From Phycisphaera mikurensis NBRC 102666 (lineage in GTDB: Bacteria; Planctomycetota; Phycisphaerae; Phycisphaerales; SM1A02), in assembly GCA_945877905.1 (NCBI GenBank), contig CAMDUT010000007.1, forward strand, positions 1 through 34,806: a DNA stretch of 34,806 nucleotides, given 5' to 3'. The position numbers and the translations under genes were made by a program. The notes under the pieces are model-generated. The model was given only the letters and a program-made list of their open reading frames with translations. It was not told the DNA's origin and made no database searches. Numbering within the stretch: position 1 is the stretch's first letter; the number at the start of each line of letters is the position of its first letter. Below are positions 3,664 through 34,806 of the stretch, piece by piece.

Positions 3664-4302
3664 ATGGTGACCGCCACCGAGCGCCCCGACGAGACGCTGC
3701 TCTCGGACTACCTGTCCGGGGACCGCGCCGCGTTCGCGACGCTGGTGGAGCGGTACCGGCGCGAGCTGCACGGCTTCCTCGCCCGGTTCCTCGGCTCGAA
3801 CGCCGCCGCGGACGACGTGTTCCAGGAGACGTTCCTCCAGGTTCACCTCGCCGCGGACACCTTCGACCGCGCCCGCGCGTTCAAGCCGTGGCTCTTCACC
3901 ATCGCGGCGAACAAGGCGCGCGACTGGCACCGCCGGCAGAAGCGCCGGCGCGCGCTCAGCCTCGACGCCCCGACGGGTTCGGACGCCGACGGCGCCCGCA
4001 TGGTGGACCTGATGGACGGCGGCGCCCCCGCACCCGATGCCTCGCTCGAGGGCGCCGAGGTGCGCGCGCAGGTGAAGGACGTGGTCGACGCCATGCCCGC
4101 CATGTACCGAGAGGTGCTCCAGCTGAACTACTTCCAGCGGATGAGCTACCAGCAGATCTCCGAGGTGCTCGGCATCCCGCTCGGGACCGTCAAGAGCCGC
4201 ATTCACGCGGCGACCGCGACCTTCGCCGACCAATGGAAGGTCGCCACGTCGCGAACGCCGCGCGCCGGCCAGCCCCGTGCCGACAAGGAGTCCAAGGCAT
4301 GA
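3664..4302 (+). CDS. ECF-family RNA polymerase sigma factor
   Basis: A 212-residue sigma-70 family protein with region 2 at about residues 22-90 (DVFQETFLQVH, then FKPWLFTIAANKARDWHRR) and region 4 at about 150-205 (MYREVLQLNYFQRMSYQQIS, GIPLGTVKSRIH helix-turn-helix). There is no region 3, typical of ECF factors that direct RNA polymerase to small stress or envelope regulons. The ATG at 3664 gives normal family length; in-frame ATGs at 3594 and 3442 would extend it to as many as 286 residues. The stop overlaps the next ATG (ATGA), coupling it to a membrane protein that is the obvious candidate anti-sigma factor. Target promoters are unknown. Confidence 0.88.
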   Translation: MVTATERPDETLLSDYLSGDRAAFATLVERYRRELHGFLARFLGSNAAADDVFQETFLQVHLAADTFDRARAFKPWLFTIAANKARDWHRRQKRRRALSLDAPTGSDADGARMVDLMDGGAPAPDASLEGAEVRAQVKDVVDAMPAMYREVLQLNYFQRMSYQQISEVLGIPLGTVKSRIHAATATFADQWKVATSRTPRAGQPRADKESKA

Positions 4303-20379: not shown

Positions 20380-21879
20380 ATGGACTGGCTGATCCAGCAC
20401 GTGCTCCGCGAACGGCTCGGGATGCACGGCCTGGCCGACGCGTTCGTGTGGCTCGTCGCGCTGGCCTTCGCGGTCAACGTCCTCTTCGCGGTTCGCGTGG
20501 TGTTCGCGAAGGGCTCGCGGCCGACCGCGGCGCTCGCGTGGATCACCGCGCTGTTCGCGCTGCCGCTCCTGGGCGCGGCGCTCTACGTGATCATCGGCGA
20601 GAACCGGGTCGGGTCGGTCCGCAGGCGGCGGCACGCGCGGATCGTGGCCGCGGCCGAGGGTGCGCTCGCGTCGGTGCAGCGTGACCCGCGCGTGCTCGCG
20701 GCGGCGATGAGCCACCCGGACATGCAGCTGGCGCGCCTGGGCGAGGCGTCCGGCGCGCCGCAGGCGCTCGGCGGGAACCTCGTGCAGCTGACCGGCGACC
20801 CCGAGGAGCAGGTCCGCTGGATGGAGTCGGACATCGACACGGCGCAGCGCTCGGTCGACCTCCTCTTCTACATCTGGGAGTGCGACGCCACCGGCGAGCG
20901 CATGGCCGCGGCGCTCGAGCGCGCGGCCGCGCGCGGCGTCCACGTGCGGCTGCTGGTCGACGGCATCGGGTCCCGGGCGTTCCTCAAGAGCCCCATGCGC
21001 CGCAGGCTCGAGGCCGCGGGCGTGCGCGTCGTCGAGGCGCTGCCGGCGACCGTCGTGCGGATCCTCTTCGCGCGCATCGACATCCGCAACCACCGGAAGC
21101 TCGTCATCGTGGACGGGGCCGTTGCGCAGACGGGAAGCCGCAACGTGGCCGACCCGGACTTCAAGTCGGGCGGGCGGTTGGGGCCGAAGGAGCCATACGT
21201 CGACAGCTGGATGCGGATCCGGGGCCCTGCGGTGCGCGACCTCAAGATCTTCTTCCTCGAGGACTGGGAGCTCGACACGGGCCACCGCGTCGCCGCCTCC
21301 GAGGTCGTCGAACCGCTGCCGCTGCCGGGCGGCATCCCGGCGCAGGTGCTGCCCTCGGGCCCGAACTTCGAGAACAGCATCGTGCGCGAGCTGATCCAGG
21401 CCGCGGTCCAGCTTGCGCGCCGCGAGATCGTCCTGAGCACGCCCTACTTCATTCCCGACAGCCCGACCATCGCCGCCATGGCGGTCGCGGCGCGGCGCGG
21501 CATCCGGGTGACGCTGATCCTGCCCCGCGCCAACGACAGCCTGCTCGCCGCGTGGGCGAGCCGGGCGAACTACGCGGCGATGCTCGAGGCGGGCGTCGAG
21601 CTCTGGGAGCACCGGCGCGGGTTCCTCCACTCCAAGACCGTCTCGGTGGACGACGAGTTCGCGATCGTGACGACCGCCAACCTCGACCGCCGCAGCTACG
21701 AGATCAACTTCGAGACGAGCGTCGTCGTGTACGACGAGTCGTTCACCCGCTCGATGCGCCGGCTGCAGCACTCGTACCTGGCCGACAGCGACCGGGTCGA
21801 CCCGCACGCGTGGCAGCGCCGCGGGCCGCTCACGCGGTTCACCGAGAACCTGGCGAACCTGGTGTCGCCGCTCCTGTAG
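20380..21879 (+). CDS. cls: cardiolipin synthase (phospholipase D family)
   Basis: A 499-residue inner-membrane enzyme with two N-terminal helices (about 20-42 and 50-73) and two PLD domains. HKD motifs: HRKLVIVDG (H238) followed by TGSRN, and HSKTVSVDD (H417) followed by TTANLDRRSYEINFE. GIGSRAFLKSPMRRRLEAAG and STPYFIPDSP are typical of bacterial Cls, which condenses two phosphatidylglycerols to cardiolipin and glycerol. AAGGTG at 20369-20374 is the likely Shine-Dalgarno. The last 41 bp overlap the convergent CRTAC1-like gene. Confidence 0.9.
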   Translation: MDWLIQHVLRERLGMHGLADAFVWLVALAFAVNVLFAVRVVFAKGSRPTAALAWITALFALPLLGAALYVIIGENRVGSVRRRRHARIVAAAEGALASVQRDPRVLAAAMSHPDMQLARLGEASGAPQALGGNLVQLTGDPEEQVRWMESDIDTAQRSVDLLFYIWECDATGERMAAALERAAARGVHVRLLVDGIGSRAFLKSPMRRRLEAAGVRVVEALPATVVRILFARIDIRNHRKLVIVDGAVAQTGSRNVADPDFKSGGRLGPKEPYVDSWMRIRGPAVRDLKIFFLEDWELDTGHRVAASEVVEPLPLPGGIPAQVLPSGPNFENSIVRELIQAAVQLARREIVLSTPYFIPDSPTIAAMAVAARRGIRVTLILPRANDSLLAAWASRANYAAMLEAGVELWEHRRGFLHSKTVSVDDEFAIVTTANLDRRSYEINFETSVVVYDESFTRSMRRLQHSYLADSDRVDPHAWQRRGPLTRFTENLANLVSPLL

Positions 21880-23560
21880 GGTCGCGGCCGACGGTCACGG
21901 ACTGCCCGCGGCGGACCGGGACGGCGCTCGACGCCGCGACGCCCGCCGGGTCGCCGGGGCGCCTCAGCATCGGCCAGTCCACCATCACCGACAGGTCGTC
22001 GCCCCACGCGGCGGGCACGCCGAAGTGCACCTCGACGCTCGCCGTGCTCTGGAACGGGCCTCCCGCCCAGATCCATCGCCGCGCCAGGACCTTGCCCCGT
22101 CCCCAGAGCTGCACGCGACACCCGATGCCGTGGCTACCCGCGGGCCCGGGCGACTGCGCGCGCACCTTCACCCAGTCGTCGGCGCGGTCATGCGCGTTGC
22201 GCAGGACGCGCACCTTGCCGTTGAGCTCGCCCACCACGATGTCCACGTCGCCGTCGCCGTCGAGATCGTCGAACACGGCGGTACGGTCGCGATGCGGCGC
22301 ACGCAGGCCGGGCCCCGCGTCCGCGACCACCTCGAAGCGCGCGCCCGCGCGCCGCATCACCAAGGGCGGCTGCTCGTACTCGGAGTCCATCGACGCCTTG
22401 GTGGCCTGCGGGTAGACGTGCCCGTTGAACGTCGCGAGGTCCTCGGCCCCGTCGTGGTCGAGGTCCACGAACGCGGTCGCCCAGCCGAGCAGCGGGCGGC
22501 TCGGGGCGCCCACGCCGTACTGCGACGTGCGGTCGTCGAAGAACGAGCCGTCGAGGTTCATGTGGAGGGTGTTGGTGTCGCTCGAGAAGTTCGTCGTGAA
22601 GACGTCGGGGAACCCGTTGCCGTCGACGTCGCCGACCGCGATCCCCATCGAGGCCTGCGCGGCGCCGTCGAAGTTGGTGGCGACGCCCGCCTGCATGCCG
22701 CGCTCCTCGAAGCGCATCGGCCCGCCGGGCGCGGAGCGGTTCATGAAGAGCGCGTTCGGCTCGCTGTCGTTGGCGACGAACACGTCGGGACGGCGGTCGC
22801 CGTCGAAGTCGACGACGGCGAGGTTGAGCCCGAACCCGGGGATCGCCTTGCCGATGCCCGCCTCGGCGCCGACCTCGCGGAAGGTGCCGTCGCCGCGGTT
22901 CTCGTAGAGCAGGTCGGCGCGGGCGGCGTACCCACGCGGGCCGGCGAGCACCACCATCCCCTTGAACTGCGCGGGCGGCGGCGGCACGGCCTTCGGGTCG
23001 AACTCCACGTAGTTGACGACGAAGAGGTCGAGGTCCCCGTCGGCGTCGAGGTCGGCGAAGCCGGCGCTGGTCGACCACCCCGGGTCGCCCAGGCCCGATG
23101 CGGCCGTGACGTCCTCGAAGCGCCCGCCGCCAAGGTTGCGAAGCAGCACGTCGGGCCCCCAGCAGCAGACGTACAGGTCGTCGCGGCCGTCGCCGTCGAA
23201 GTCGCCCACCGCGGCACCGAAGCTCCACCGGCGATGCCGGACGCCCATGCTCTCGGTCATGTCGCGGAAGCGCAGGCCGCCGAGGTTCTCGTAGAGCCGC
23301 GCTCCCGGGCCCGCCCCGGGCGCATCGAGCGTGGCGCCGTTCGGGAAGAACAGGTCGCGGTCCCCGTCGCCGTCGAAGTCGATGAGCGCCAGCCCGCACC
23401 CCTTCACCTCGACGATTGCCGTCGAGGGCATGCGCCCGCTGGTCAGCTCGAGGTCGATCCCGCTCGCGGCCGTCGCGTCCTCGAACCGGATCGCGGGGGC
23501 GTCGCACGGCACCGCGGCCGCCGCCAGCCGCACCAAGGCCAGCCACGCCGCCGCCGTCAC
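21839..23560 (-). CDS. CRTAC1-like FG-GAP/VCBS protein with ASPIC/UnbV domain (A)
   Basis: A 573-residue exported protein. After a short hydrophobic N-terminus come at least seven DxDxDG-type calcium-binding repeats (DFDGDGDRD, DFDGDGRDD, DLDADGDLD, DFDGDRRPD, DVDGNGFPD, DLDHDGAED, DLDGDGDVD), predicting an integrin-like beta-propeller. The last about 110 residues (GIGCRVQLWGRG, SVEVHFGVP, VMVDWP) match the ASPIC/UnbV domain. Function of the family in bacteria is poorly known; adhesion or enzyme scaffolding is proposed from the fold. The start is GTG at 23560, overlapping the TPR gene's TGA (GTGA), so the two are translationally coupled. The stop lies inside the 3' end of cls. Confidence 0.85.
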   Translation of the reverse strand: MTAAAWLALVRLAAAAVPCDAPAIRFEDATAASGIDLELTSGRMPSTAIVEVKGCGLALIDFDGDGDRDLFFPNGATLDAPGAGPGARLYENLGGLRFRDMTESMGVRHRRWSFGAAVGDFDGDGRDDLYVCCWGPDVLLRNLGGGRFEDVTAASGLGDPGWSTSAGFADLDADGDLDLFVVNYVEFDPKAVPPPPAQFKGMVVLAGPRGYAARADLLYENRGDGTFREVGAEAGIGKAIPGFGLNLAVVDFDGDRRPDVFVANDSEPNALFMNRSAPGGPMRFEERGMQAGVATNFDGAAQASMGIAVGDVDGNGFPDVFTTNFSSDTNTLHMNLDGSFFDDRTSQYGVGAPSRPLLGWATAFVDLDHDGAEDLATFNGHVYPQATKASMDSEYEQPPLVMRRAGARFEVVADAGPGLRAPHRDRTAVFDDLDGDGDVDIVVGELNGKVRVLRNAHDRADDWVKVRAQSPGPAGSHGIGCRVQLWGRGKVLARRWIWAGGPFQSTASVEVHFGVPAAWGDDLSVMVDWPMLRRPGDPAGVAASSAVPVRRGQSVTVGRDPTGAATPGSPGSR

Positions 23561-24399
23561 GGCGCCGTCCGGGCTGGCGGCTTCGACGCGGCATCGAGGA
23601 TCGACTGCTGCCTCGCGCGCGCGGCGTTCGCGTCGTCCGCCTTGCCGGTGCGGTCGAGGACGCGAGCGAGCTTGGCCCACGCCTCGTGATGGTCCGGCCA
23701 GAGTTCCAGCGCCGCGCGGTAGTCCCGCTCGGCCGCCGCGAGGTCGTCGCGGCGCATCGCGCAGTCGCCGAGGCGCGCGAGGCACTTGGCGCGCTCGCGT
23801 GCCGGGCCCTTCTGCGCCTCGAGCAGCGCGAGCGCGCGCCGGAACTGGCGCTCGGCGTCCGCCGTGCGGTCCTCGTCGAAGGCGATCACCCCGAGCGCGA
23901 ACTGCGTGTCGTCGTAGTCGGGGAACGCGCGCGCGTGCTCGACGAACGCCACCTTCGCGCCGGCGAGGTCGCCAAGGTACAGGCGGCACCACCCGAGGTA
24001 GTGCGGGACGTGCGGCCGTTCGGGGAACGCGTCCGGCGCGGCGCGCTCGGCGGCCTCGAGCTGCGGCAGCGCGTCGCCGTAGCGCTTCTGCTTGTGGAGC
24101 GCGAGCCCGAGGTAGAAGGCGGCGCGCGGGTCGGCGGGCGCGGCCGCGGCCCACTCGCAGCACGTCGCCTCGGCGGACGCGAAGTCCCCGGCACGGAACT
24201 GCGCGTGGATCGACGCGATGCGCGGGTCCACCGGAACCGGGGCCGGCGGAACGCCGACCTGCACGGGCGCGGCCGCCGTCGGCGGCGTGGGCGGCGTGGC
24301 GCCCGACCCCGCGGCTGGCTCCTGGGCGCAGGCCGGGCCGGCGATCAGGGCCATCGCGACGGCGGATCGGGCGGCAGCATTCGCGAGGATCCGGTCCAT
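23557..24399 (-). CDS. exported tetratricopeptide repeat protein
   Basis: A 280-residue protein with a signal peptide (MDRILANAAARSAVAMALIA, cleavage near ACA), a Pro/Ala/Gly linker, and about five TPR units from residue 55 (e.g. DPRAAFYLGLALHKQKRYGD, DTQFALGVIAFDEDRTADAE, AERDYRAALELWPDHHEAWA). TPRs are protein-interaction scaffolds. A TATACT 8 nt before the ATG, and no Shine-Dalgarno, suggest a leaderless start. It is directly coupled by GTGA to the CRTAC1-like gene, so the two products probably act together. Confidence 0.85.
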   Translation of the reverse strand: MDRILANAAARSAVAMALIAGPACAQEPAAGSGATPPTPPTAAAPVQVGVPPAPVPVDPRIASIHAQFRAGDFASAEATCCEWAAAAPADPRAAFYLGLALHKQKRYGDALPQLEAAERAAPDAFPERPHVPHYLGWCRLYLGDLAGAKVAFVEHARAFPDYDDTQFALGVIAFDEDRTADAERQFRRALALLEAQKGPARERAKCLARLGDCAMRRDDLAAAERDYRAALELWPDHHEAWAKLARVLDRTGKADDANAARARQQSILDAASKPPARTAP

Positions 24400-24596
24400 A
24401 TCGCAAAAGTATAGAAGAGTTTGCGGACCTTGAAGTGGCCTTTGCCCCCAGCCCGCGTTAGATTGGTGAAGGTCATTCCGTCCGGTTTATGGGATCTTTC
24501 GGCCCGCCGGACGCACACAGTCGGAAGCGTAGCATGCCGTCCGCAGCGCCCCGCGGTCGTTTCCACGACGACGTCAACGCCTAGGAGACACGGAGC
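24400..24596. promoter_or_regulatory. divergent promoter region TPR gene / cytochrome gene
   Basis: 197 bp, one of the least GC-rich stretches. Minus strand: TATACT (24408-24413), 8 nt from the TPR ATG. Plus strand: TTAGATT near 24458-24464 is the best -10-like element for the cytochrome gene, but the TTGAAG at 24430-24435 is 23 nt away, too far for a standard -35. Confidence 0.4.
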
Positions 24597-26267
24597 ATGC
24601 TGACCCCGAAGACCCTGTTGCTCGTGACGCCGCTCGTCGGCGCGACCGCGGTGCACGCCGGCGAAGTCTTCCTCCAGCCGAGGGCGGGCGAACCGCTGCG
24701 AGGGCTCACGGCGGCGCAGTTGGCGCTCTTCGAGGAGGGCAAGGACCTCTATTCGACTCCGATCCCGTCGTCGGCGGGCATGGGGCCGATCTTCAACAAG
24801 TCGAACTGCCAGAGCTGCCACTCCACGCCCACGGGCGGCTGGGGCAACGCGAGCGTCACGCACTTCGGCATGTCGGACAAGGGCTCGTTCGGCATGATCC
24901 CGGGCGAGCCGCAGAGCCTGCTGCAGGAGTTCGCCGTGAGCGAGTTCTGCAAGGAGGACGTGCCGGCGGTCGCGAACTTCACGGCCATCCGCATGACGAA
25001 CTCGAGCATGGCGTTCGGCATGGTCGAGGCGGTCCCCGACTTCGCGATCGCGGCGCTCGAGGACCCGGACGACCTCGACGGGGACGGCGTTTCGGGCCGC
25101 GTGCACTGGGTGCGCCCGCTCGAGGAGACGGACGCGAACGCCCCGCTCCGCGCGGGCCGCTTCGGCTGGAAGGCGCAGGTCGCGACGGTGCTCAGCTTCT
25201 CGGCGGACGCCACCCGCAACGAGATGGGCATCACCAACCGGCTGATCCCGGAGGAGAACGCGCCGAACGGCGACGCCGCGCGCCTGGCCGAGTGCGACCC
25301 CGTCCCGGAGCCCGAGGACATCGCCGACACGCAGGGGTTCGCGTTCATCGACCGGGTCACGCACTTCCAGCGATACCTGTCCGTGCCGCCCCAGTCCCCG
25401 CGCTCGGGCATGTCGGGCGAGTCGGTGTTCATCGGGGTCGGCTGCGCGAAGTGCCACGTGCCGGAGTGGACGACGTCGAACTCCCCTGCCCTCGAGGACG
25501 CGATCCGCGGGCAGGTCATCCGTCCGTACACCGACTTCATGCTCCATGACATGGGACTGCAAGGCGACGGCGTCGCCGACGGCTACGCATGGGAGACTGA
25601 GTTGCGAACGCCGACCCTTTGGAACCTGCGGACGCGCGACCCGATGCTGCACAACGGCGCCGCCTCGGGCGGCACGTTCGGCGACCGGGTGCGCACCGCG
25701 ATCGCCCTGCACGGGCCGTACGGCGAGGCCGCCGGGAGCGCGGCCGCGTTCGCGAAGCTCCCGGAGGCGCAGAAGGCGCAGCTCGTGGCGTTCCTCGACT
25801 CGCTCGGGCGCATCGAGTTCGACGGCGACGGCGACGGCCACGTCGACGCGCTCGACCTCGCGTCCTTCGCGGCGGCCTACGCGACCCCGGTGGTCACGCC
25901 CGACAACCCGGGTGCCATGCACGACATCGACCAGGACGGCGACGTGGACGACGCCGACCTCGACTGGCTCGTGCAGGCCTACGAGATGCCCGAGACCGGG
26001 AACGCCGACTGCAACGGCAACGGCGTGGCCGACGTCCGCGACATCGCGCGCGGCACGAGCCTCGACGCGGACGCCGACGGCGTGCCCGACGAGTGCGGCG
26101 CGTGCACCGGCGACCTCGACGGCGACGGCGCCGTGAACGGCCTCGATCTGGGCGTCATGCTCGCCGCCTGGAGCTCGTCCCAGCCCGCTCCCGACCTGAA
26201 CGACGACGGCACCGTGAACGGCCAGGACCTCGGCGTGCTGCTCGCCGCATGGGGCGCCTGCCCCTGA
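24597..26267 (+). CDS. secreted di-heme cytochrome (DUF1111/thiol oxidoreductase-like) with dockerin-like tail
   Basis: A 556-residue exported protein. CQSCH (C71) and CAKCH (C283) are two c-type heme sites, in the contexts FNKSNCQSCHSTP and VGCAKCHVPEW typical of DUF1111 proteins, which are related to di-heme peroxidases. LRTPTLWNLRTRDPMLHNGA near 340 is another family mark. From about 405 the protein changes to Asp/Gly-rich repeats (DGDGDGHVDALDLASFAAAY; DIDQDGDVDDADLDWL) and ends in a dockerin-like pair closing with VLLAAWGACP, like the next gene's tail. Shine-Dalgarno AGGAG at 24583-24587. It likely acts in periplasmic or surface electron transfer; substrate unknown. Confidence 0.82.
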   Translation: MLTPKTLLLVTPLVGATAVHAGEVFLQPRAGEPLRGLTAAQLALFEEGKDLYSTPIPSSAGMGPIFNKSNCQSCHSTPTGGWGNASVTHFGMSDKGSFGMIPGEPQSLLQEFAVSEFCKEDVPAVANFTAIRMTNSSMAFGMVEAVPDFAIAALEDPDDLDGDGVSGRVHWVRPLEETDANAPLRAGRFGWKAQVATVLSFSADATRNEMGITNRLIPEENAPNGDAARLAECDPVPEPEDIADTQGFAFIDRVTHFQRYLSVPPQSPRSGMSGESVFIGVGCAKCHVPEWTTSNSPALEDAIRGQVIRPYTDFMLHDMGLQGDGVADGYAWETELRTPTLWNLRTRDPMLHNGAASGGTFGDRVRTAIALHGPYGEAAGSAAAFAKLPEAQKAQLVAFLDSLGRIEFDGDGDGHVDALDLASFAAAYATPVVTPDNPGAMHDIDQDGDVDDADLDWLVQAYEMPETGNADCNGNGVADVRDIARGTSLDADADGVPDECGACTGDLDGDGAVNGLDLGVMLAAWSSSQPAPDLNDDGTVNGQDLGVLLAAWGACP

Positions 26268-26316
26268 GCCGGACCGCCGTCCCGACCGCCCAGCCACCGA
26301 CACCGAGACACCGACC

Positions 26317-28866
26317 ATGACCATGAAGACCACCCTCGCGCTCGCGATCGCATCGCTCGCGGCCGCCGGCACCGCGTCGGCCCAGAACTGGGTCACCTAC
26401 TCGAACCAGACCAGCTCGCGCCTCGTCGCGGCCGCCTCGCTCATCGGCGCGGACAACCTCGAGAAGGACTTCGGCTGGGGCGACCTCGACCAGGACGGGG
26501 ACGTCGACCTCGTCTGCATGCGCAAGTTCCCGGGCAGCATCCAGGGCGGCTTCCGCAACATCCTGTTCATGAACGAGGGCGGCGTCCTCGTGGACCGCAC
26601 GACCGAGTACGGCTCGGCGAGCGACATCAGCGGGTACTCGGGCCTGCTCGACCCGACGAACGACCGCGACGTCGAGGTGGTGGACGTGAACCTCGACGGC
26701 TGGCTCGACCTCATCACCGCGACCACGATGAGCGACCAGGTCAACAGCATCCTCGGCCAGCCGCGCGTCTACATCAACCTCGGCGACGACGCCAACGGCA
26801 ACTGGCGCGGCCTGCGCTTCGAGGTCGACCGCATCCCCGACCTCTTCGCGCGCAACGGCACCGCCGCGAACCCCCGGTTCTGCGACGCGGCGGTCGGCGA
26901 CTTCAACGGCGACGGCTACCCGGACGTCTTCTACACCGACTACGACACCCCCGAGACCTCGGGCACGCTCTGCTACGACATCAACGGCGACGGCGACACG
27001 AACGACGCCGGCGAGTGCCAGCAGAGCCCGGCGGAGAACTCGGCGCTCGACTACGACAACAAGCTGCTCCTCAACCGGGGCGCCCTGAACCCCGGCGTCT
27101 TCTATGACGCCACGACCAGCGTCCTGACGAGCGCGCAGATCACCTCCGGCTTCGGCAACATGGCGGTGGCCGGTGACTTCAACTCCGACGGGCGCGACGA
27201 CATCGTCCGCATCAACACCCTCACTGGCGGCCAGGCGGTCAGCGTCTACACCAAGTCCGCGGCGGGCGCTGGCTTCTCGCTCAAGGACATCGCCTTCGGC
27301 CAGCCCTACCACGGCGACAAGGCCGACCTGAACAACGACGGCAGGCTCGACCTGGTCATCGTCGACGACGGGCAGGACAAGTACCTCCTGAACACCGGCA
27401 ACGCCGCCAACGGCGAGCCGAACTTCACGAGCTACACCATCGCCGACAGCCTCAGCGAGTTCGGCAACAGCACGCAGGTCGGCGACCTCGACAAGGACGG
27501 CCGCGTCGACGTGATCATCACCGACGTCGACGCCGACCTCGGGCCCTTCTGCCCGCAGTCGACCGGCGCCGCGCACTCGCGCCGGACCCACATCTACCGG
27601 AACGTGTTCGCGGGCTCGCCCTCGGGCATCCTGGACGAGATCACCGCGCCGTCGCTCGTGATCCCCGCGTCCGAGCTCGACTGGTGGACCGACGTCGCGG
27701 TGTTCGACATCAACGGCGACACGTACCTCGACCTCGTCGCGGGCACCTGCACCGGGATCGTCGTGTACATGAACGTCCCGCCGATCAACGTCACGTTCTC
27801 GTTCCCCGACGGGCGGCCGACGGTCGCCGCCCCCGGCGCGGCCTCGAACTTCCGTGTCCGCACGGCCGTGGCCGGCGGAGGCTCGATCGTGGCGGGGAGC
27901 GTCCGGCTCTGGTGGCGCATCGACGGCGGCGCATGGCAATCGCAGCAGCTGGCGAGCGCGGGCGGAAACGACTGGCAGGCCTCGCTGCCGGCCTTCGCCT
28001 GCGGCAACCAGGTGTCGTGGTACGTCTCGGCGCAGCTTTCGAACGGAGGCACCACCACCTACACGGAGCCTGCGGCAGGCCAGTCCGGACCCGCCGGCCT
28101 GTCCGTCCAGACCGGCACGAGCACCCCGGTGGCGACCGACTTCGAGGGCGTGACGAGCGACTGGACGGTCGCCAACGAGGGTGGCCTCACCACCGGCGCG
28201 TGGGTCGTCGCGACCCCGACGGGCACCACGAGCGGCACCTACGCGGCGGCTCCGAGCTCGGACGCCAGCGCGGTCGGCACGAAGGCATTCGTGACCCAGA
28301 ACGGAAGCGGCACCGCAAACACGCTCGACGTCGACGTCGGGACCACGCGGCTCACGAGCCCGTCCTACGACCTGTCGGGCAGCGTCGACGCCACCGTCTC
28401 GTTCTGGGCGTGGTACTTCTGCAGCGACGCGGCCCCGGCCGGGTCCACCCCCGCGGAGGTCGACCCGTTGGTGGTCCAGGCGAGCGCCGACGGCGGCGCG
28501 ACGTGGGCCACCGTGATGTCCATCACCACCTACCCCACGCCGAACGCGTGGGTGCGCCAGTCGTTCTCGCTGCGGTCGGTGCTTCCGGAGCTCACCGCGA
28601 ACGTGCGGGTCCGGTTCTCCATCTCGGACACGCCGGACAACTCGATCACCGAGGCGGGCATCGACGAGTTCTCCATCTCGGTCGTGACGTGCGACACGCC
28701 GTGCCCGGCCGACCTCTCGAGCGACGGGTTCGTCGACGGGACCGACCTCGGCTCGATGCTGGCGGCCTGGGGCGGAGGCCCCGGCGCCGGCGACCTGAAC
28801 GGCGACGGCACGGTCGACGGCATCGACCTGGGCCTCCTGCTCTCGGCCTGGGGTGCGTGCCCCTGA
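26317..28866 (+). CDS. secreted VCBS/FG-GAP repeat protein with dockerin-like tail
   Basis: An 849-residue protein with signal peptide (MTMKTTLALAIASLAAAGTA, cleavage after SAQ region). The first about 480 residues hold FG-GAP/VCBS repeats with calcium-loop motifs (DLDQDGDVD, DVNLDGWLD, DFNGDGYPD, DFNSDGRDD, DLNNDGRLD, DLDKDGRVD). A beta-sandwich-like middle region follows, including a SYDLSGSVDATVSFWAWYF segment that looks like a lectin/MAM-type jellyroll. The C-terminus is CPADLSSDGFVDGTDLGSML ... DLNGDGTVDGIDLGLLLSAW, then GACP, matching the preceding gene's tail. It lies 49 nt after the cytochrome gene and is probably in one operon. A second ATG at 26323 is possible. No enzymatic motif seen. 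Confidence 0.82.
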   Translation: MTMKTTLALAIASLAAAGTASAQNWVTYSNQTSSRLVAAASLIGADNLEKDFGWGDLDQDGDVDLVCMRKFPGSIQGGFRNILFMNEGGVLVDRTTEYGSASDISGYSGLLDPTNDRDVEVVDVNLDGWLDLITATTMSDQVNSILGQPRVYINLGDDANGNWRGLRFEVDRIPDLFARNGTAANPRFCDAAVGDFNGDGYPDVFYTDYDTPETSGTLCYDINGDGDTNDAGECQQSPAENSALDYDNKLLLNRGALNPGVFYDATTSVLTSAQITSGFGNMAVAGDFNSDGRDDIVRINTLTGGQAVSVYTKSAAGAGFSLKDIAFGQPYHGDKADLNNDGRLDLVIVDDGQDKYLLNTGNAANGEPNFTSYTIADSLSEFGNSTQVGDLDKDGRVDVIITDVDADLGPFCPQSTGAAHSRRTHIYRNVFAGSPSGILDEITAPSLVIPASELDWWTDVAVFDINGDTYLDLVAGTCTGIVVYMNVPPINVTFSFPDGRPTVAAPGAASNFRVRTAVAGGGSIVAGSVRLWWRIDGGAWQSQQLASAGGNDWQASLPAFACGNQVSWYVSAQLSNGGTTTYTEPAAGQSGPAGLSVQTGTSTPVATDFEGVTSDWTVANEGGLTTGAWVVATPTGTTSGTYAAAPSSDASAVGTKAFVTQNGSGTANTLDVDVGTTRLTSPSYDLSGSVDATVSFWAWYFCSDAAPAGSTPAEVDPLVVQASADGGATWATVMSITTYPTPNAWVRQSFSLRSVLPELTANVRVRFSISDTPDNSITEAGIDEFSISVVTCDTPCPADLSSDGFVDGTDLGSMLAAWGGGPGAGDLNGDGTVDGIDLGLLLSAWGACP

Positions 28867-28896
28867 CCGACCGACCGCCGCGCGACGCATGACTTC

Positions 28897-28929
28897 CCGC
28901 GCCCGGCACGCCTTGCGTGCCGGGCGCGG
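28897..28929. terminator. 15-bp bidirectional terminator hairpin
   Basis: CCGCGCCCGGCACGC (28897-28911), loop CTT, GCGTGCCGGGCGCGG (28915-28929): perfect 15-bp stem between two convergent genes (stops at 28866 and 28939). No strong T-tract on either side. Confidence 0.7.
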
Positions 28930-28938
28930 CGCGTTCCG

Positions 28939-30816
28939 TCATCGACGGGCGCGCTCGATCGTCAGCGTTTCGGCGCCCGCCGCGGCCGGATGCTCGGTCG
29001 TCACGCCGTCGGGCCACCGCACGGTGATCCGCCGGGCCCGGGAGCTTCCGAGTCCCAGCCACGCCACGGGCGGGACCTGCGAGAGGTAGCTGCGCGTGGG
29101 CATGATGGTCCGGCGCAGCACGGATCCGTCGAGCAGCTCGACCGCGATTCCCGCGCCGATGGCCGCACGGTTCCCGGGCGAGCCCGGATCATCGAGCCGC
29201 ACCGCGAGCGACCCGCCCTGCACGGCCACGTTGCGCGCGACCATGGGCGGGCCGCGCAGCGCGCACAGAACGAGGTCGAGGGCACCGTCGCCGTCGAGGT
29301 CGCCCCACGCGAGCCCGCGGCCCACCACGGGCCGTGCCAGCGCGCCGAGCGCCGTGGCCGGCACCTCCGCGAACGTCGCCCCGCCGCCCGCGCCCGCGTT
29401 CCGGAACACCTGCGCGGCCTGCGCCCACGACTGCGAGGCCTGCACCTCGGCGATCCTCGGCTCGATGTGGCCGTTGGCGAGCGCGAGGTCCTCGTGGCCG
29501 TCGGAATCGAGGTCGGCGAAGACGACGCCGAAGGTGAGCGCTCGACGGGTGGCCGCCGAGATTCCGTCGACGATGGCGTCGTCGGAGAAGCGTCCGTCGC
29601 CGGGCGTCACGTAGAGGCTCACGGGCTCGTTCGCGAAGTTCCCGACCGCGATGGCGAGCGCGCGGTCGTTCCTCAGGTGCGACGCATCGCAGCCCATCGC
29701 GCCCGTCGCCGCGCCGTTGCGGTCAAAGGCGATCCCGGACTCGACGCCCCGCTCGGCGAACCTCCCGTGCCCGTCGTTCACGAAGAGCAGGTTCTGCACC
29801 GTGTCGTTCGCGACGAACACGTCGAGGTCGCCGTCGGCGTCGACGTCGTCGATCACGAAGCCGAGCGACTTCGCGAGCGGCTCGCCGGTCGAGCGGTTCC
29901 GGGCCACGAACCCGCGCTCAACGGACCGATCCTCGAACCGCATGGGCGCGACCTGCTCGAGGAACGCGACGTCGGTGCCCCGGAAGCCGTTCGGCGCGCC
30001 GTACGCGCGCCCGATTCCCGTGAGCGTGTAGCCCACGGCGAAGTCGATCTCGGCGGACCACTCCACGTACCGGCCGAGCACGAAGTCGAGGTCGCCGTCC
30101 GAATCGAGGTCGGCGAAGCCCGCGGCGGTCGTCCACCCCGGGACCCCGGACAGCCCGGACTCCCGCGTGACGTCGCGCCAACGGGGCGGCGCGCCGTCCG
30201 GGGCCCGCTCCGCGGCGAAGAGCCGCACTCCGCCAACGCCCGTCTCGAGGATCTCGGGCCGGCCGTCGCCGTCGAGGTCGCCGAGCGCGACCCCCATCGC
30301 CTGCCGCGGCGACCCGAGTCCCGTCCCGGCCGCGCGCACGAAGCGCGGCCCGTCGGGCGCGGATCCGCGGTTCACGTACACGACGATGCCTTGCCCGCGC
30401 TCCGCGCCGGAAGGCGCGTCGGGCCAGGCGTCGCCGTCCACGAACAGCAGGTCGAGGTCTCCGTCGGCGTCGACATCGCTGACCGCGACCCCGCCTCCCA
30501 TGGTCTCGGGAAGCAGGCGTCGGCCGTCCGCGCCGTCGGTACGCCGGAAGTCGATGCCCCACCGATCGGTGACGTCCTCGAACGGAAGTCCCGCGACGGG
30601 CCGGGCCGGCGCCGACGCGGGGCCCGTCACCTGCACGGGCTCCACGGGCGCGGGAGCCGCGGGCCGAGCGGCCCAGCGCCACGCGAACACGGTCATCGCC
30701 ACGGAGCCGACCACGCCGAGCGAAACCCAGAACGCGCGCGCGATCACGCGGCCGTCCTCCGCCGTCGGCTCGCGATCACCGGGTCCTCGCGAACCGTCCC
30801 GGCCCTCGGCCGTCAC
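28939..30816 (-). CDS. membrane-anchored CRTAC1-like FG-GAP protein with ASPIC/UnbV domain (B)
   Basis: A 625-residue protein with an N-terminal membrane anchor (about 25-47: VIARAFWVSLGVVGSVAMTV), an Ala/Pro linker and six DxDxDG-type repeats (DVDADGDLD twice, DLDGDGRPE, DLDSDGDLD, DLDSDGHED, DLDGDGALD) forming a predicted propeller. The end (AIGAGIAVELLDGSVLRRTI, LGLGSSRARRITVRWPDGVT) is a clear ASPIC/UnbV domain. It starts at GTG (30816), overlapping the TGA of the pentaheme gene, so its synthesis depends on that gene. This is the same GTGA junction as the TPR/CRTAC1-A pair. Function unknown; a surface partner of the cytochrome is inferred. Confidence 0.85.
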   Translation of the reverse strand: MTAEGRDGSRGPGDREPTAEDGRVIARAFWVSLGVVGSVAMTVFAWRWAARPAAPAPVEPVQVTGPASAPARPVAGLPFEDVTDRWGIDFRRTDGADGRRLLPETMGGGVAVSDVDADGDLDLLFVDGDAWPDAPSGAERGQGIVVYVNRGSAPDGPRFVRAAGTGLGSPRQAMGVALGDLDGDGRPEILETGVGGVRLFAAERAPDGAPPRWRDVTRESGLSGVPGWTTAAGFADLDSDGDLDFVLGRYVEWSAEIDFAVGYTLTGIGRAYGAPNGFRGTDVAFLEQVAPMRFEDRSVERGFVARNRSTGEPLAKSLGFVIDDVDADGDLDVFVANDTVQNLLFVNDGHGRFAERGVESGIAFDRNGAATGAMGCDASHLRNDRALAIAVGNFANEPVSLYVTPGDGRFSDDAIVDGISAATRRALTFGVVFADLDSDGHEDLALANGHIEPRIAEVQASQSWAQAAQVFRNAGAGGGATFAEVPATALGALARPVVGRGLAWGDLDGDGALDLVLCALRGPPMVARNVAVQGGSLAVRLDDPGSPGNRAAIGAGIAVELLDGSVLRRTIMPTRSYLSQVPPVAWLGLGSSRARRITVRWPDGVTTEHPAAAGAETLTIERARR

Positions 30817-33668
30817 GGAGCACCCCGGGCCACGCCGGAAGGAAGCCCGGGTGCGCCCGGGCGCTGCAGGTCGTAGACCGCCGCGGGCTCGGCCGCATGG
30901 TCCGCGGCCGGGTTCGCGGCGCGGGCCGCCGTGACGGCGCGGTCGCGTGCGTTGTCGTCGGGGCGGTAGCGCTCGTACTCGCGACGGGCGCGGGTGGCGG
31001 CCTCCGGGTCGCCGAGCGCCTCGACCGCCTGGAGGAACACGTACCAGGTCGCGGCGCGCTGCAGGTCCTGGTCGATGGCGGCCTGGGCCAGCCTGCGTGC
31101 CTCCTGAAGCAACTCGGTCCGGCGCGCCGCGTCGGCCGGTTCACGCAGCTGCCGCGCGCGCTCCAGGCACGCCGTCGCCCACTCCACGAGGAGGCGATCG
31201 TCGCGCGAGAAGTCGTAGCCGCGCGCCCGGGCCTCGGGGAACCGCGTCGCGGAAACGCCGGCGAAGCCCGCCATCGCCCGCTCGTACTCCCCTTGCTGCA
31301 GGTCGATCACCGCGCTCCAGTACGCCACGCTCCATGGCACCGGGTTCCCTTCGACGGCGGCCGCGGCGCGCAGGTGCTCGCCCGCGTCGGCCAGCCGACC
31401 CTCGCGCAACGCCACACGCGCACGGGCCACCAGCGCCTGGGCGCGGCCGGCGCCCGTGACCCGGCGGAACGCCTCGTCGGCGCGCGTCCATTGGCCCTTG
31501 CCGCCCGCGCGCTCGGCGGTGCGGAACCGGGCGATCCCCGCGTCGTACCAGCGCTCCCACTCCGCCGCGGCCGTGGGCGCGGCAGCCGCCGCGGGCGCCG
31601 GGGCCGAAGAACCGGCCACGGGGACGTCCTGCGCCGGCCCGCCGAAGGTCACGCGGTCGGTGGCCATCGTCATGATCGGCAGGTCGTTCTCGCGCCCGGG
31701 GCCATGCACGTACCGCAGGTACGTCAGGTCGAACTTCCGGTAGCGCACCGCGGCCTCGACGGTGATCGGGCCCTTGGTGCCGGGCGGCACCGTGAAGGCA
31801 TAGCGCGTCGCCTCGGCGCCGCCGGGCTGCACCTGGTGGTCGTAGAGCGGCACGAAGATGTCCTGCGGGTTGCGACGGTCGATGCGGCGCCCCTCGCGGT
31901 CGAGCATCCACACGTTCAGGAACTTGCTCCACGGGTCGACACCGTTGCCCTCGCCCAGCGCGCCCGAGCGCCCGATGACGCGATCCCCGGCGCGCACCGT
32001 GACGTCGATCCACGCCTCGTTGCTGTCCACGGTCCCCTGCGTGAACGCATGGCCGATCGCGCCGAGCGCACGCACCACCACCTCCACCTCGTGGCGACGC
32101 CCGGCCTCGAGCGCCGGCGCGGCGTCGGGAAGCGGCGCGAACTCCGGCCCGCCCTCCGGGGTGACGCCGAAGATGTCGACGCGCAGCACGTTCCGGTTGA
32201 ACGCCTCGGTGGCGGCGAGCGCGCCCGACCAGTCATGCAGCCCCGAGGCCCGCGCGGTCGCGGTGTTACCGCCCGGGAAGAGGTGGCCCTTGAGGAGGAT
32301 GCTGCCGTCGGGGCCGCGCGGCTTCGCGCCGGGGTCGGCGCTCGCCACGAGCGGCATGTGGCACCCGTTGCAGTCGGCGGCGGCCTCCTTGGGCCAGTGC
32401 CACGCCTGGATGCCGTGGCCGCTGCGGCCGCTCAGGCGCCAGCTGTCGTAGTGGTTCTGTCCCGGCAGCCACTTGTAGTCGTTGAGCTCCTCGGGAAGGA
32501 ACACCTTGTGGCACGTGGAGCAGAACTCGGCGCTGCGGTGCACCTCGGGCTTCAGGAACGTCGCCTTGTGGAACGCCGGCTTCGAGAACACCAGCTGCCG
32601 GTTCACCCACTGCAGGAACGGGCTCTCGCTGAAGGCGAAGGGGTACTGCGGGCTCTCCTCGATCACGTAGTCGGCGTTGCCGCGCGTGCTCGTCACCGAG
32701 GTGATCGAGTGGCACGCGGTGCACGTGATGCTCGCGGACCCGAGCGGGTCCTTCGATACGTCGTACGCAGGGTCGTCGAACCGCGCGTCCTCGAAGGCGC
32801 CCGTGAAGAAGGGCACGGGGTCGTGGCACCCAGCGCAGAAGCGCGCGTCGTGGACGTCCCCGTCCTTCTCGAACGCAGCCTTGCGGGTCTCGCGGACGCT
32901 GAAGGCGTAGAGCGGGTTGTTGAAGCTGCTCGCCGCGTGCGCGCTGTGCGCCCACCCGTGGAACGAGTCCTGGTGGCACTGCACGCAGTAGTCGTTCATC
33001 CGCAGCGACCGCTCGGGAATGAACGCGCCGTTCGCCGTGCGCGCGAGGCTCGGCTCGAAGTACGAGTCGCCGTCGCGCGGGTTCCTCCGGTCGCGCCCCG
33101 CGTCCCAGCCGTGCCATGCGATGAATCCGGCGGCGAGCGCGAGCGACGCGGCGGCGACGCCGAGACCGGTGCCCCACCGGATGCGCCGGCCGGCGAGCCG
33201 GTGCAGGACGAACGCCCACACCAGGACGAGCGGTGCGGCGACGTGCGACCAGTACGCGAGCGTCCGGCCGCGCATGCCGAGCGGGTCGAACGACGCGCCG
33301 CCCACCTCGACCCGCATGAGGAGGAAGCCCGTGGCGAGCGTCACGAGCGCGGCGACGAACGCGACGTTGCCCATGCGGACCGCGGCGCGGTTCGGGTGAT
33401 GGTGCCCGCGCTTCCAGTGCCACGCGCCGAACGCCACGGCCGGCGCGGTGATCGCGACGCCGAGCACGAGGTGCACCATGAACATCCAGAGGTAGAAGCC
33501 GTTCTGGAGGCTGCGCCCCGAGATCCACTCCGCGAGCGTGACGGTGGACAGGTAGATCGAGTTGAAGGAGAGCAGCGCGAACAGCACGAGCACCGCAAGC
33601 AGCAGCTTCGCCATGCGCCGCGTCACGACGCCGCCCGGGGGCACGCGGGGCTTCGGCGCAGGCTCCAT
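30813..33668 (-). CDS. membrane-bound pentaheme c-type cytochrome with TPR tail
   Basis: A 951-residue protein. Residues 20-186 form about five membrane helices with histidines (H66, H84, H142, H156) that could bind heme b. The extracytoplasmic part has five CxxCH sites: CVQCH (228), CAGCH (278), CTACH (316), CSTCH (383), CNGCH (433), arranged like cytochrome c554-type multihemes. A beta-rich region (about 480-690) follows, then an Ala/Pro linker and TPR-like helices (about 715-930: WERWYDAGIARFRTAERAGG; ALVARARVALREGRLADAGE). A quinol-to-periplasm electron-transfer role is plausible. TAGACT lies 7 nt before the ATG. It is coupled by GTGA to CRTAC1-like gene B. Confidence 0.82.
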   Translation of the reverse strand: MEPAPKPRVPPGGVVTRRMAKLLLAVLVLFALLSFNSIYLSTVTLAEWISGRSLQNGFYLWMFMVHLVLGVAITAPAVAFGAWHWKRGHHHPNRAAVRMGNVAFVAALVTLATGFLLMRVEVGGASFDPLGMRGRTLAYWSHVAAPLVLVWAFVLHRLAGRRIRWGTGLGVAAASLALAAGFIAWHGWDAGRDRRNPRDGDSYFEPSLARTANGAFIPERSLRMNDYCVQCHQDSFHGWAHSAHAASSFNNPLYAFSVRETRKAAFEKDGDVHDARFCAGCHDPVPFFTGAFEDARFDDPAYDVSKDPLGSASITCTACHSITSVTSTRGNADYVIEESPQYPFAFSESPFLQWVNRQLVFSKPAFHKATFLKPEVHRSAEFCSTCHKVFLPEELNDYKWLPGQNHYDSWRLSGRSGHGIQAWHWPKEAAADCNGCHMPLVASADPGAKPRGPDGSILLKGHLFPGGNTATARASGLHDWSGALAATEAFNRNVLRVDIFGVTPEGGPEFAPLPDAAPALEAGRRHEVEVVVRALGAIGHAFTQGTVDSNEAWIDVTVRAGDRVIGRSGALGEGNGVDPWSKFLNVWMLDREGRRIDRRNPQDIFVPLYDHQVQPGGAEATRYAFTVPPGTKGPITVEAAVRYRKFDLTYLRYVHGPGRENDLPIMTMATDRVTFGGPAQDVPVAGSSAPAPAAAAAPTAAAEWERWYDAGIARFRTAERAGGKGQWTRADEAFRRVTGAGRAQALVARARVALREGRLADAGEHLRAAAAVEGNPVPWSVAYWSAVIDLQQGEYERAMAGFAGVSATRFPEARARGYDFSRDDRLLVEWATACLERARQLREPADAARRTELLQEARRLAQAAIDQDLQRAATWYVFLQAVEALGDPEAATRARREYERYRPDDNARDRAVTAARAANPAADHAAEPAAVYDLQRPGAPGLPSGVARGAP

Positions 33669-33716: not shown

Positions 33717-34806
33717 TCAGCGCCCGCCGTTCCAGCGCACGTTGTGGCGGCGGTGGAGCGCGTCGCGATCCGCCCCGGGGATCGCGCCGTCACGGACCGG
33801 CAGCGGGTCGAGGGTCGCGCCCGTGCCGGTGTGGAGGTCCATGTCCTTGCACCAGCCCGCCACGTCGAGCACCCATGTGCGGCGCATTCCCGCGGCAGGC
33901 GAAGGCACCGACCGCGCGTCGAACGAGAGCCGGACCTCCTCGCCGGCCCCGAAGACCGCGACGGCGTCGTCGATCCCGGCGAGCAGCGCGGTGCAGTCGC
34001 CGAACGCGGTGTACGCCCCCGGCTGAACGCGGCAGTCCCAGAGCGGGACGCGGTGCGCGTAGTCGTAGTCCGGGCGGCGCTGCGGGCGCGGAATGCGCCG
34101 CGCGAACCCGGCGTCCGCCATCGAGGCGCCCGCGAGTCGGCCCACGTGCCGTACCGCCCCCGGGCACGGCTCGGCCCACGCGAGCCGCACGGCGTCGACG
34201 TAGACCTCCATGGTGGTGCGGAGGCGCAGCTCGCGGCAGCCGTGCGGCACGCCGACCCTCGGAACCGGAAGCAGGCAGCGGCGCGGCATGCCCGCGGGGT
34301 AGCCGTACTCGGCGACGAGCGTCACCCACGCGCCGGTCGCGGGATCCTTCGCCTCGAGCGTGGGTGCCTGGTACGGCGCCTGTGCCTGCCACATCGCGAA
34401 CCCGGTGGACGAGTACGGGTACTCGACCCAGCCATCGAGGACGAGCATGGGCTCGCCCGAGGCCGCGTCGATCGCGTCGGCGAACGCAAGCTCGAGCGTC
34501 GCCTCGTCGGCCAGCCGCCCGATGAAGCGCGGGTCCGCGGGCCCGAGGTCGGCGGCCCGTCCGTCCGCGGACCCGACGTCGTCCGTGGCATCGGCGTCGC
34601 GCCCCGCCGTCCGTGCGACGGCCCGCGCCGGCACCGACGACCGACGCCAGAACCGTGCCTCGCCGGTCGGCTGCGGACCGTTGATTCCCATGCGCTCGTC
34701 GAGCGCGACGTCCCATCCCTCCGGCACGTCGATCGCCTCGAGCACGACCGCGTCGAGGTAGCACGCCTCCTCCATCGGCTCGCCGAGGCGAACGTCGTAG
34801 CGCCCG
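33717..34806 (-). CDS. C-terminal part of a large ASPIC/CRTAC1-associated protein (runs off window)
   Basis: At least 363 residues. The frame is open through the window edge: upstream of an ATG at 34775 it reads GRYDVRLGEP directly into MEEACYLDAVVLEAIDVPEG, so that ATG is internal. Phrases like YDVRL.EP.EEACYLDAV.L and a following DERMG resemble, from memory, the C-terminal domain of very large bacterial FG-GAP/ASPIC-UnbV-TPR proteins. Further motifs: LVLDGWVEYPYSSTGFAMWQ and TWVLDVAGWCKDMDLHTG. No heme or repeat motif is in the visible part. The stop is 48 nt upstream of the pentaheme start, same strand. Confidence 0.6.
   Translation of the reverse strand, partial: GRYDVRLGEPMEEACYLDAVVLEAIDVPEGWDVALDERMGINGPQPTGEARFWRRSSVPARAVARTAGRDADATDDVGSADGRAADLGPADPRFIGRLADEATLELAFADAIDAASGEPMLVLDGWVEYPYSSTGFAMWQAQAPYQAPTLEAKDPATGAWVTLVAEYGYPAGMPRRCLLPVPRVGVPHGCRELRLRTTMEVYVDAVRLAWAEPCPGAVRHVGRLAGASMADAGFARRIPRPQRRPDYDYAHRVPLWDCRVQPGAYTAFGDCTALLAGIDDAVAVFGAGEEVRLSFDARSVPSPAAGMRRTWVLDVAGWCKDMDLHTGTGATLDPLPVRDGAIPGADRDALHRRHNVRWNGGR

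Follow-up and report, generated by a model that had tools for sequence, protein, structure and literature searches.

TPR genes linked to CRTAC1/ASPIC-UnbV genes, and a candidate pentahaem electron conduit with a TPR tail

Introduction

PMC6295460 describes CbcL/MtrH/MtoC and ImcH as families of quinol oxidases/quinone reductases that act in extracellular electron transfer, and likens the membrane part of CbcL to a two-haem b-type domain. A second relevant case is that of the hydrazine synthase (HZS)-like gene clusters, in which a CRTAC1 gene either separates or flanks the alpha-like and beta-gamma-like genes (PMC12758564); the words TPR and tetratricopeptide have 0 occurrences in that paper. 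In Myxococcus xanthus, the c-type cytochrome TfcP, which is soluble, has a single noncanonical haem and lacks TPR, acts on the calcium-blade propeller of PilY1 (PMC8833165). In methanotrophs, the MauG-like proteins CorB and SACCP have CorA and MopE as gene neighbours (PMC3912023).

Members of the CRTAC1/ASPIC-UnbV family are present in organisms ranging from bacteria to vertebrates, and many Planctomycetota have large numbers of them. Our literature search found no paper giving the bacterial members a role and no direct description of UnbV/ASPIC proteins together with multihaem or TPR proteins. Here, we describe a locus in which two TPR genes, one of which also encodes a membrane multihaem cytochrome, are each followed by a CRTAC1 gene. 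The window is the whole stretch of 34,806 nucleotides that was analyzed.

Results

Gene arrangement and junctions

Genes were called with a gene caller seeded with confirmed genes; a caller trained on the longest ORFs was dropped because it picked antisense shadow ORFs. The features of the locus are:

21839..23560, minus strand: CRTAC1 protein of pair 1, 573 aa from GTG; hydrophobic signal-like N-terminus, FG-GAP propeller, borderline ASPIC/UnbV
23557..23560, minus strand: GTGA overlap of pair 1 (TGA stop/GTG start)
23557..24399, minus strand: TPR protein of pair 1, 280 aa; signal-peptide-like N-terminus; TPR_2, 4.2e-13
24400..24596, no strand: intergenic region of 197 bp between two divergent gene pairs, presumably a shared promoter region
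24597..26267, plus strand: di-haem oxidoreductase (DHOR, PF06537) with C-terminal dockerin
26317..28866, plus strand: FG-GAP protein with GC-type-dockerin-like C-terminus
28939..30816, minus strand: CRTAC1 protein of pair 2, 625 aa from GTG; N-terminal membrane-anchor-like helix, FG-GAP propeller, ASPIC/UnbV
30813..30816, minus strand: GTGA overlap of pair 2 (TGA stop/GTG start)
30813..33668, minus strand: pentahaem protein, 951 aa; five N-terminal membrane helices, five CXXCH, beta domain, TPR solenoid
33717..34806, minus strand: third TPR-linked gene, C-terminal part, truncated at the end of the contig; TPR, FG-GAP, ASPIC-like and large C-terminal domain, N-terminal lipobox

As the preliminary description had stated, both TPR genes (23557-24399 and 30813-33668) end in a TGA lying within a GTGA that is able to start the CRTAC1 gene. 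The junction of pair 1 (23560-23557, minus strand) reads ...gacggcgcc GTGA cggcgg... and that of pair 2 (30816-30813, minus strand) ...ggggtgctcc GTGA cggccg..., and both CRTAC1 frames are uninterrupted from the junction GTG down to the stop. An internal GTG at 30747, the choice of this simple gene caller, is an alternative start for the pair 2 CRTAC1 protein. The span originally given for the arrangement, 21839-30816, omits the pentahaem gene itself, which extends to 33668.

The window contains two further 4-nt overlaps, both ATGA (4299-4302, and murC/murB at 16232-16235). Among comparable loci, a possible 4-nt overlap was found in 65/308 close same-strand pairs (21%), 22 of the 65 being GTGA, and the letters GTGA are therefore unremarkable. 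The exact 4-nt NTGA overlap was kept in 35/40 family loci of pair 1, as compared with this background of 21%, the orthologues not being independent of one another. It was present in 22/59 named pentahaem loci with an adjacent CRTAC1 gene, and many pentahaem/CRTAC1 pairs have a short gap in its place. The junctions, which had been called identical, are indeed both GTGA, but GTGA as a special signal was rejected, since ATGA is commoner at the orthologue junctions and 4-nt overlaps are ordinary. Judged from these sequence comparisons, the conserved adjacency exceeds chance expectation, and so does the conserved overlap, in pair 1 only.

Pair 1 and the CRTAC1 proteins

The pair 1 TPR gene adjoins its CRTAC1 gene in 79/91 family matches. 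Eight of nine distant homologues still stand beside a CRTAC1 46-57% identical, the order being reversed once, and in one genome (G336/L169) the pair is fused into one reading frame with loss of the second signal peptide.

The two CRTAC1 proteins of the window are paralogues (35% identical) with FG-GAP_3 repeats (6.2e-40 and 1.5e-31). With a cut-off of 23.4 bits, UnbV_ASPIC is clear in the pair 2 protein (45.4 bits) and borderline in the pair 1 protein (21.1 and 25 bits in two scans). The latter matches the CRTAC1 structure 9etn (1.6e-09). By sequence and fold, they thus resemble the CRTAC1/ASPIC-UnbV family, in which an FG-GAP calcium propeller is followed by ASPIC/UnbV. To our knowledge, vertebrate CRTAC1 is not tied to TPR or haem proteins, unlike the bacterial members described here. 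No conserved cofactor ligands were found in the CRTAC1 orthologues beyond Asp-rich calcium motifs and an NGH motif, which gives no indication that the propeller accepts electrons.

Among sampled ASPIC proteins, a TPR upstream neighbour was found for 8/32 and a fused TPR in 6/39. ASPIC genes show TPR linkage more often than the comparison set does (8/32 versus 3/77), yet it is not universal; TPR is not a general partner of ASPIC proteins.

The divergent DHOR and FG-GAP genes

The DHOR and FG-GAP-dockerin genes occur together, divergent to pair 1, in 21/21 loci. The dockerin_GC match of the FG-GAP protein (25.0 bits) lies under the cut-off of 29. Within limited flanks, DHOR was found near 0/40 (L065-L104) and 7/80 (L185-L264) pentahaem genes; DHOR as a general partner of pentahaem genes is unsupported, being absent near most of them within those flanks. 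The surface proteins CorA and MopE of methanotrophs are copper binders, not FG-GAP proteins. The arrangement nevertheless resembles CorA/CorB and MopE/SACCP, where a di-haem peroxidase-family gene also stands beside a surface-protein gene; no TPR or pentahaem partner is described for those (PMC3912023).

Anatomy of the pentahaem protein

Five CXXCH motifs, counted by eye at residues 228-437, are all invariant in the pentahaem family. Four histidines, H66, H84, H142 and H156, are invariant across its close and distant members and, in the model, fall in helices 57-88 and 131-158. They form a putative bis-histidine di-haem-b pattern (pairs H66/H142 and H84/H156), from which we infer haem b binding. 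H244, H367, H462 and H540 are likewise invariant and may be distal haem ligands. With seven predicted haems (two b and five c), the protein probably moves electrons across the membrane.

The beta domain (approximately 495-675) is followed by the TPR part, for which a single sequence gave just 0.0048, while the family profile matched a designed TPR protein with 2e-35. The model shows a helical TPR solenoid at 703-926 (pLDDT mostly >90), and Foldseek matched this tail to TPR proteins; model, Foldseek and profile agree on the antiparallel helix pairs building a solenoid that are expected of TPR. There was no Pfam or NCBIfam family match for the membrane domain, and no model in either collection covers the pentahaem family as a whole.

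Like CbcL and ImcH, as they appear in the available part of PMC6295460, the pentahaem protein carries, in a single chain, both a membrane part of multiple helices and several CXXCH predicted to lie outside. The layout of CbcL/MtrH/MtoC, with multihaem c first (nine CXXCH in CbcL) and a C-terminal six-helix di-haem-b domain last, is reversed here: five N-terminal helices carry the four invariant histidines, suitably placed by sequence and model for two CbcL-like bis-His membrane b haems, and the five CXXCH, the beta domain and the TPR follow (PMC6295460, same part). ImcH has three N-terminal helices, the third and the adjoining haems being NapC/NirT-like, whereas the pentahaem protein has five helices and no NapC/NirT family match. 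In addition, it has a CRTAC1 partner, which that part of PMC6295460 does not mention for either family. The HZS-like clusters, published independently, likewise connect c-haem proteins with an FG-GAP/CRTAC1 gene, both within Planctomycetota and outside this phylum (PMC12758564). The pentahaem protein differs in lacking the HZS domain plan, and its model has no propeller, unlike the alpha-like subunit with its propeller and c haems.

Linkage of the pentahaem gene

A CRTAC1 homologue lies directly downstream of the pentahaem gene in 29/29 relatives (L006-L034) and in 59/71 assessable named loci from Planctomycetota, Verrucomicrobia, Acidobacteriota and other record labels. In the remaining 12/71, no CRTAC1 was found within 900 nt downstream; several of these have a TPR-propeller gene upstream. 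Linkage was also seen in 14/20 distant relatives (approximately 28-34% identical). The family spans several phyla, with at least 578 encoding stretches in one scan, in poorly cultured environmental bacteria.

The upstream part of the third gene was found on another contig (C142) of the same genome, which overlaps the end of this contig by 385 bp at 94.8%. The pentahaem gene is immediately preceded by such a TPR-propeller lipoprotein gene in 20 named loci and also in this genome. The single-chain model of the lipoprotein matched CRTAC1 (9etn, 4.4e-16) as well as MamA, which is a TPR protein (TM up to 0.88).

The preliminary description had further proposed that TPR and CRTAC1 proteins are made as partners and that the two pairs were independently coupled. 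In the genomes compared, the homologues are mostly linked rather than unlinked and natural TPR-CRTAC1 fusions exist, so the partnership is very probable and, at the level of gene sequence, well supported. Linkage and fusion point to functional association and do not by themselves establish physical contact. As to independence, BLAST showed no relation between the TPR parts of pair 1 and of the pentahaem protein, and a common ancestor for them lacks BLAST support. The two CRTAC1 proteins, on the other hand, are paralogous, and the pentahaem gene lies within the pair 1 neighbourhood in 11/21 family loci examined, so that the proposed independence is only half borne out.

Discussion

On balance, we favour, with moderate confidence, the reading that these minus-strand genes encode extracytoplasmic TPR-propeller complexes, in which the pentahaem version is an electron conduit, CbcL/ImcH-like but of a new family, with a TPR tail docking CRTAC1. 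The TPR solenoid would serve as the arm to which a CRTAC1-type calcium propeller docks and, in the pentahaem protein, would be fused to the conduit, whose role is suggested by the invariant ligands. In the membrane domain of five helices, two b haems (ligands H66/H142 towards one face, H84/H156 towards the other) would act as an electron relay linking the five c haems, which are predicted to lie outside, with the quinone pool or the cytoplasmic side. The TPR tail would keep the membrane-anchored CRTAC1 protein beside this haem chain. The pair 1 proteins and the TPR-CRTAC1 lipoprotein may be the same docking unit in haem-free form.

A redox-linked maturation or assembly, as the preliminary description had suggested, in which the pentahaem protein and DHOR modify or help fold exported propellers while TPR presents the client, as CorB/SACCP might for CorA/MopE, would fit the constant divergent placement of DHOR and FG-GAP-dockerin beside pair 1, and there is a precedent in a di-haem peroxidase whose gene shares a transcript with that of a surface protein bearing oxidised Trp (PMC3912023). 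Such chemistry does not require a membrane di-haem-b domain, however, and DHOR was not found near most pentahaem genes within the limited flanks; we regard this explanation as unlikely and favour electron transfer across the membrane first because of the invariant haem-b ligand pattern. That the cytochrome only stabilises a calcium-bound propeller without moving electrons is very improbable: TfcP does stimulate calcium binding by PilY1 (PMC8833165), whose calcium-blade motifs are shared with FG-GAP propellers (PMC3123361), but TfcP is a soluble protein whose only haem has His/Cys ligation, as against five CXXCH and five membrane helices with four invariant histidines here.

The pairs could also be ordinary operon neighbours, co-inherited without joint work in Planctomycetota rich in CRTAC1. 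As many as 37 ASPIC matches occur in a single genome, overlaps of the GTGA and ATGA kinds are frequent, and most sampled ASPIC genes lack a TPR neighbour. This is nonetheless improbable, as the linkage is retained in different phyla at identities of approximately 28-50% and has outlasted rearrangement, and the two parts are fused in some natural proteins.

Under the conduit reading, in which the pentahaem TPR protein probably carries electrons through the membrane, the two pairs resemble components of an as yet undescribed extracytoplasmic electron-handling system. The pentahaem family, which occurs in several phyla and is not covered in full by any Pfam or NCBIfam model, may therefore be an unrecognised electron-transport component. 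For bacterial CRTAC1, the close coupling to a membrane protein in which seven haems are predicted offers a testable role. More tentatively, and with somewhat more doubt than belief, we suggest a multi-phylum conduit family, with di-haem b, pentahaem c and TPR in one chain, that works only when complexed with a CRTAC1 propeller. If this were true, bacterial CRTAC1/ASPIC-UnbV would gain its first defined biochemical role, as a partner of extracytoplasmic electron transfer.

Linkage of the TPR and CRTAC1 genes

The window holds two minus-strand gene pairs, in each of which a TPR gene precedes the gene of a CRTAC1 protein, an FG-GAP calcium propeller with an ASPIC/UnbV part (borderline in pair 1). 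According to the preliminary description, the stop codon of each TPR gene overlaps a GTG start of the CRTAC1 gene, and both the sequence and the CRTAC1 frames, which are open from the junction GTG in the two pairs, bear this out.

23560-23557, minus strand: ...GCGCC-GTGA-CGGC, pair 1 junction at the end of the TPR gene
30816-30813, minus strand: ...GCTCC-GTGA-CGGC, pair 2 junction at the end of the pentahaem gene

The identity of the two junctions had also been taken as a signal, a reading that we abandon because the four letters are not beyond chance: a 4-nt overlap was possible at 65 of 308 close same-strand gene pairs in comparable loci (42 ATGA and 22 GTGA). Two more ATGA overlaps lie inside the window, one of them murC/murB. 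The part that is far from chance is the conserved linkage, not the letters GTGA.

The TPR gene of pair 1 (23557-24399) gave TPR matches down to 4e-13 and encodes a signal-like N-terminus. A search of 101 same-family genomes yielded 91 homologues of its product, 79 of which directly precede a CRTAC1 orthologue; beyond the family, a CRTAC1 protein of 46–57% identity adjoins eight of nine distant TPR homologues, with the order reversed once. The proposed adjacency of TPR and ASPIC/UnbV genes thus holds for pair 1. An exact 4-nt overlap was present at 35 of the 40 pair 1 junctions read (25 ATGA, 10 GTGA), and in one genome (G336:C94, locus L169) the two genes form a single ORF, a natural fusion that has lost the signal peptide of CRTAC1.

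Full-length relatives of the pentahaem protein of pair 2 were found in dozens of planctomycete genomes, mostly at 42–51% identity, and a scan of named genomes gave at least 578 stretches encoding such relatives. The best 80 of these records are labelled Planctomycetota, Verrucomicrobia, Acidobacteriota, Latescibacterota, and others, although most are metagenome bins whose labels may err. The adjacency was found for pair 2 as well, as the pentahaem gene is directly followed by a CRTAC1 homologue in every one of the 29 relatives fetched first, in 59 of 71 assessable named loci (22 with the exact 4-nt overlap), and in 14 of 20 distant relatives. This linkage is strong but not absolute, since in a member of the window's own family (L084) the CRTAC1 gene is located approximately 3.3 kb further downstream.

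A divergent four-gene block

24597-28866, plus strand: di-haem oxidoreductase (DHOR) with dockerin and FG-GAP protein with a dockerin-like end, between the two pairs

Gene calling on 20 relatives and the window recovered all four genes (these two and pair 1), each at its place, in 21/21 loci, with the FG-GAP-dockerin and di-haem oxidoreductase genes on one strand and TPR and CRTAC1 divergent; the preliminary description did not contain this block. A pentahaem gene was also nearby in 11 of these 21 loci. Pair 1 is thus one half of a fixed, divergent block of four genes; the more widely spread pair 2 forms a unit of its own that is often found beside it. Elsewhere in the window, 285-746 encodes a small, very cysteine- and lysine-rich protein, possibly exported and metal binding.

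TPR as a partner of ASPIC proteins

33717-34806: C-terminal part of an incomplete gene, directly upstream of the pentahaem gene and cut by the window edge

In full, the protein of this edge gene has approximately 1,100 residues: a TPR solenoid is fused to an FG-GAP propeller that carries an ASPIC-like part, and a large domain at the C-terminus, with the motifs SSCPVLFAWNG and GWCKDMDL, was assigned to no family by a Pfam scan. The model of one relative matched murine CRTAC1 (9etn, 4.4e-16) and the TPR protein MamA in one chain, and 20 named loci have a full-length copy immediately before the pentahaem gene. Another contig of the same genome (C142) ends in the edge gene, overlapping the window end by 385 bp at 94.8% identity, and adds the missing N-terminal part, which begins with a lipobox-like sequence; the small sequence differences in the overlap point to strain variation as the probable cause of the assembly break. 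The continuation at L334:3435-6131 is a lipoprotein with TPR, propeller, and the conserved large C-terminal domain.

Since the edge gene is a TPR–propeller fusion, TPR is tied to three of the genome's four ASPIC proteins, those of pairs 1 and 2 among them. The start of the fourth ASPIC gene (contig C82) overlaps an upstream gene that by eye resembles vanadium-dependent haloperoxidases, and both products end dockerin-like (L335:3354-7264). In a phylum-wide, not fully random sample of 39 ASPIC genes (strongest matches, one per genome), TPR occurred in 8/32 same-strand upstream neighbours versus 3/77 other nearby genes (one-sided Fisher p = 0.002) and within the same chain in 6/39, so that TPR is a recurrent yet minority partner of ASPIC proteins. 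A redoxin-type domain (Redoxin/AhpC-TSA) shared the chain in 2/39 of these planctomycete proteins (L265-L304). Directly upstream of another ASPIC gene lies a seven-CXXCH gene (L286:4616-5827), a further cytochrome–CRTAC1 neighbourhood.

Architecture of the pentahaem protein

The structure model of the 951-residue protein (mean pLDDT 87.7, pTM 0.85) showed the following parts.

17-50, 57-88, 94-117, 131-158, 165-189: five long N-terminal helices
to approximately 490: helical haem region
495-675: beta domain
703-926: TPR solenoid

As a single sequence, the TPR part falls under the Pfam cut-off, but the family profile matched a consensus TPR protein at 2e-35 and TPR is also clear in the model, confirming that the pentahaem gene carries TPR as described. 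Its five CXXCH motifs are invariant in the family, and five are likewise present in 38 of the 40 relatives fetched from around genes of this kind. Close and distant members alike retain H66 and H84 (helix 2) and H142 and H156 (helix 4); H244, H367, H462, and H540 are likewise invariant and could be distal haem ligands. Placing the haem domain outside would make helices 2 and 4 parallel, so that H66/H142 would form the outer and H84/H156 the inner pair. This layout would be that of two bis-histidine b haems, a prediction that leans on the established knowledge of b-type cytochromes.

Possible function of the TPR–CRTAC1 units

The most economical reading is a probable membrane electron conduit with a TPR-docked CRTAC1. 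Electrons would pass from the quinone pool or the cytoplasmic side to the b haems and on to the c haems, or in reverse, and the TPR tail of the pentahaem protein would dock the membrane-anchored propeller. The conserved residues of CRTAC1 are Asp-rich calcium motifs, and no redox cofactor signature was found among them. The main rivals are that the system serves instead the maturation of exported propellers, by analogy with the role suggested for CorB/CorA and SACCP/MopE (PMC3912023), or the calcium loading of the propeller, for which TfcP/PilY1 (PMC8833165) would be an analogous precedent.

As a conduit, the pentahaem protein would work like CbcL or ImcH of extracellular electron transfer (PMC6295460), but it is a member of neither: its domains stand in another order, and it has other numbers of helices and haems. 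A CRTAC1-annotated FG-GAP gene has been reported between or beside hydrazine-synthase-like subunit genes (December 2025, PMC12758564), which independently ties CRTAC1 to c-haem proteins. No description of the TPR–CRTAC1 pair or the pentahaem family was found in the literature searched, which excluded most subscription journals. Thus, the pentahaem protein would belong with the known membrane multihaem conduits, where a CRTAC1 partner is, as far as we have found, new.
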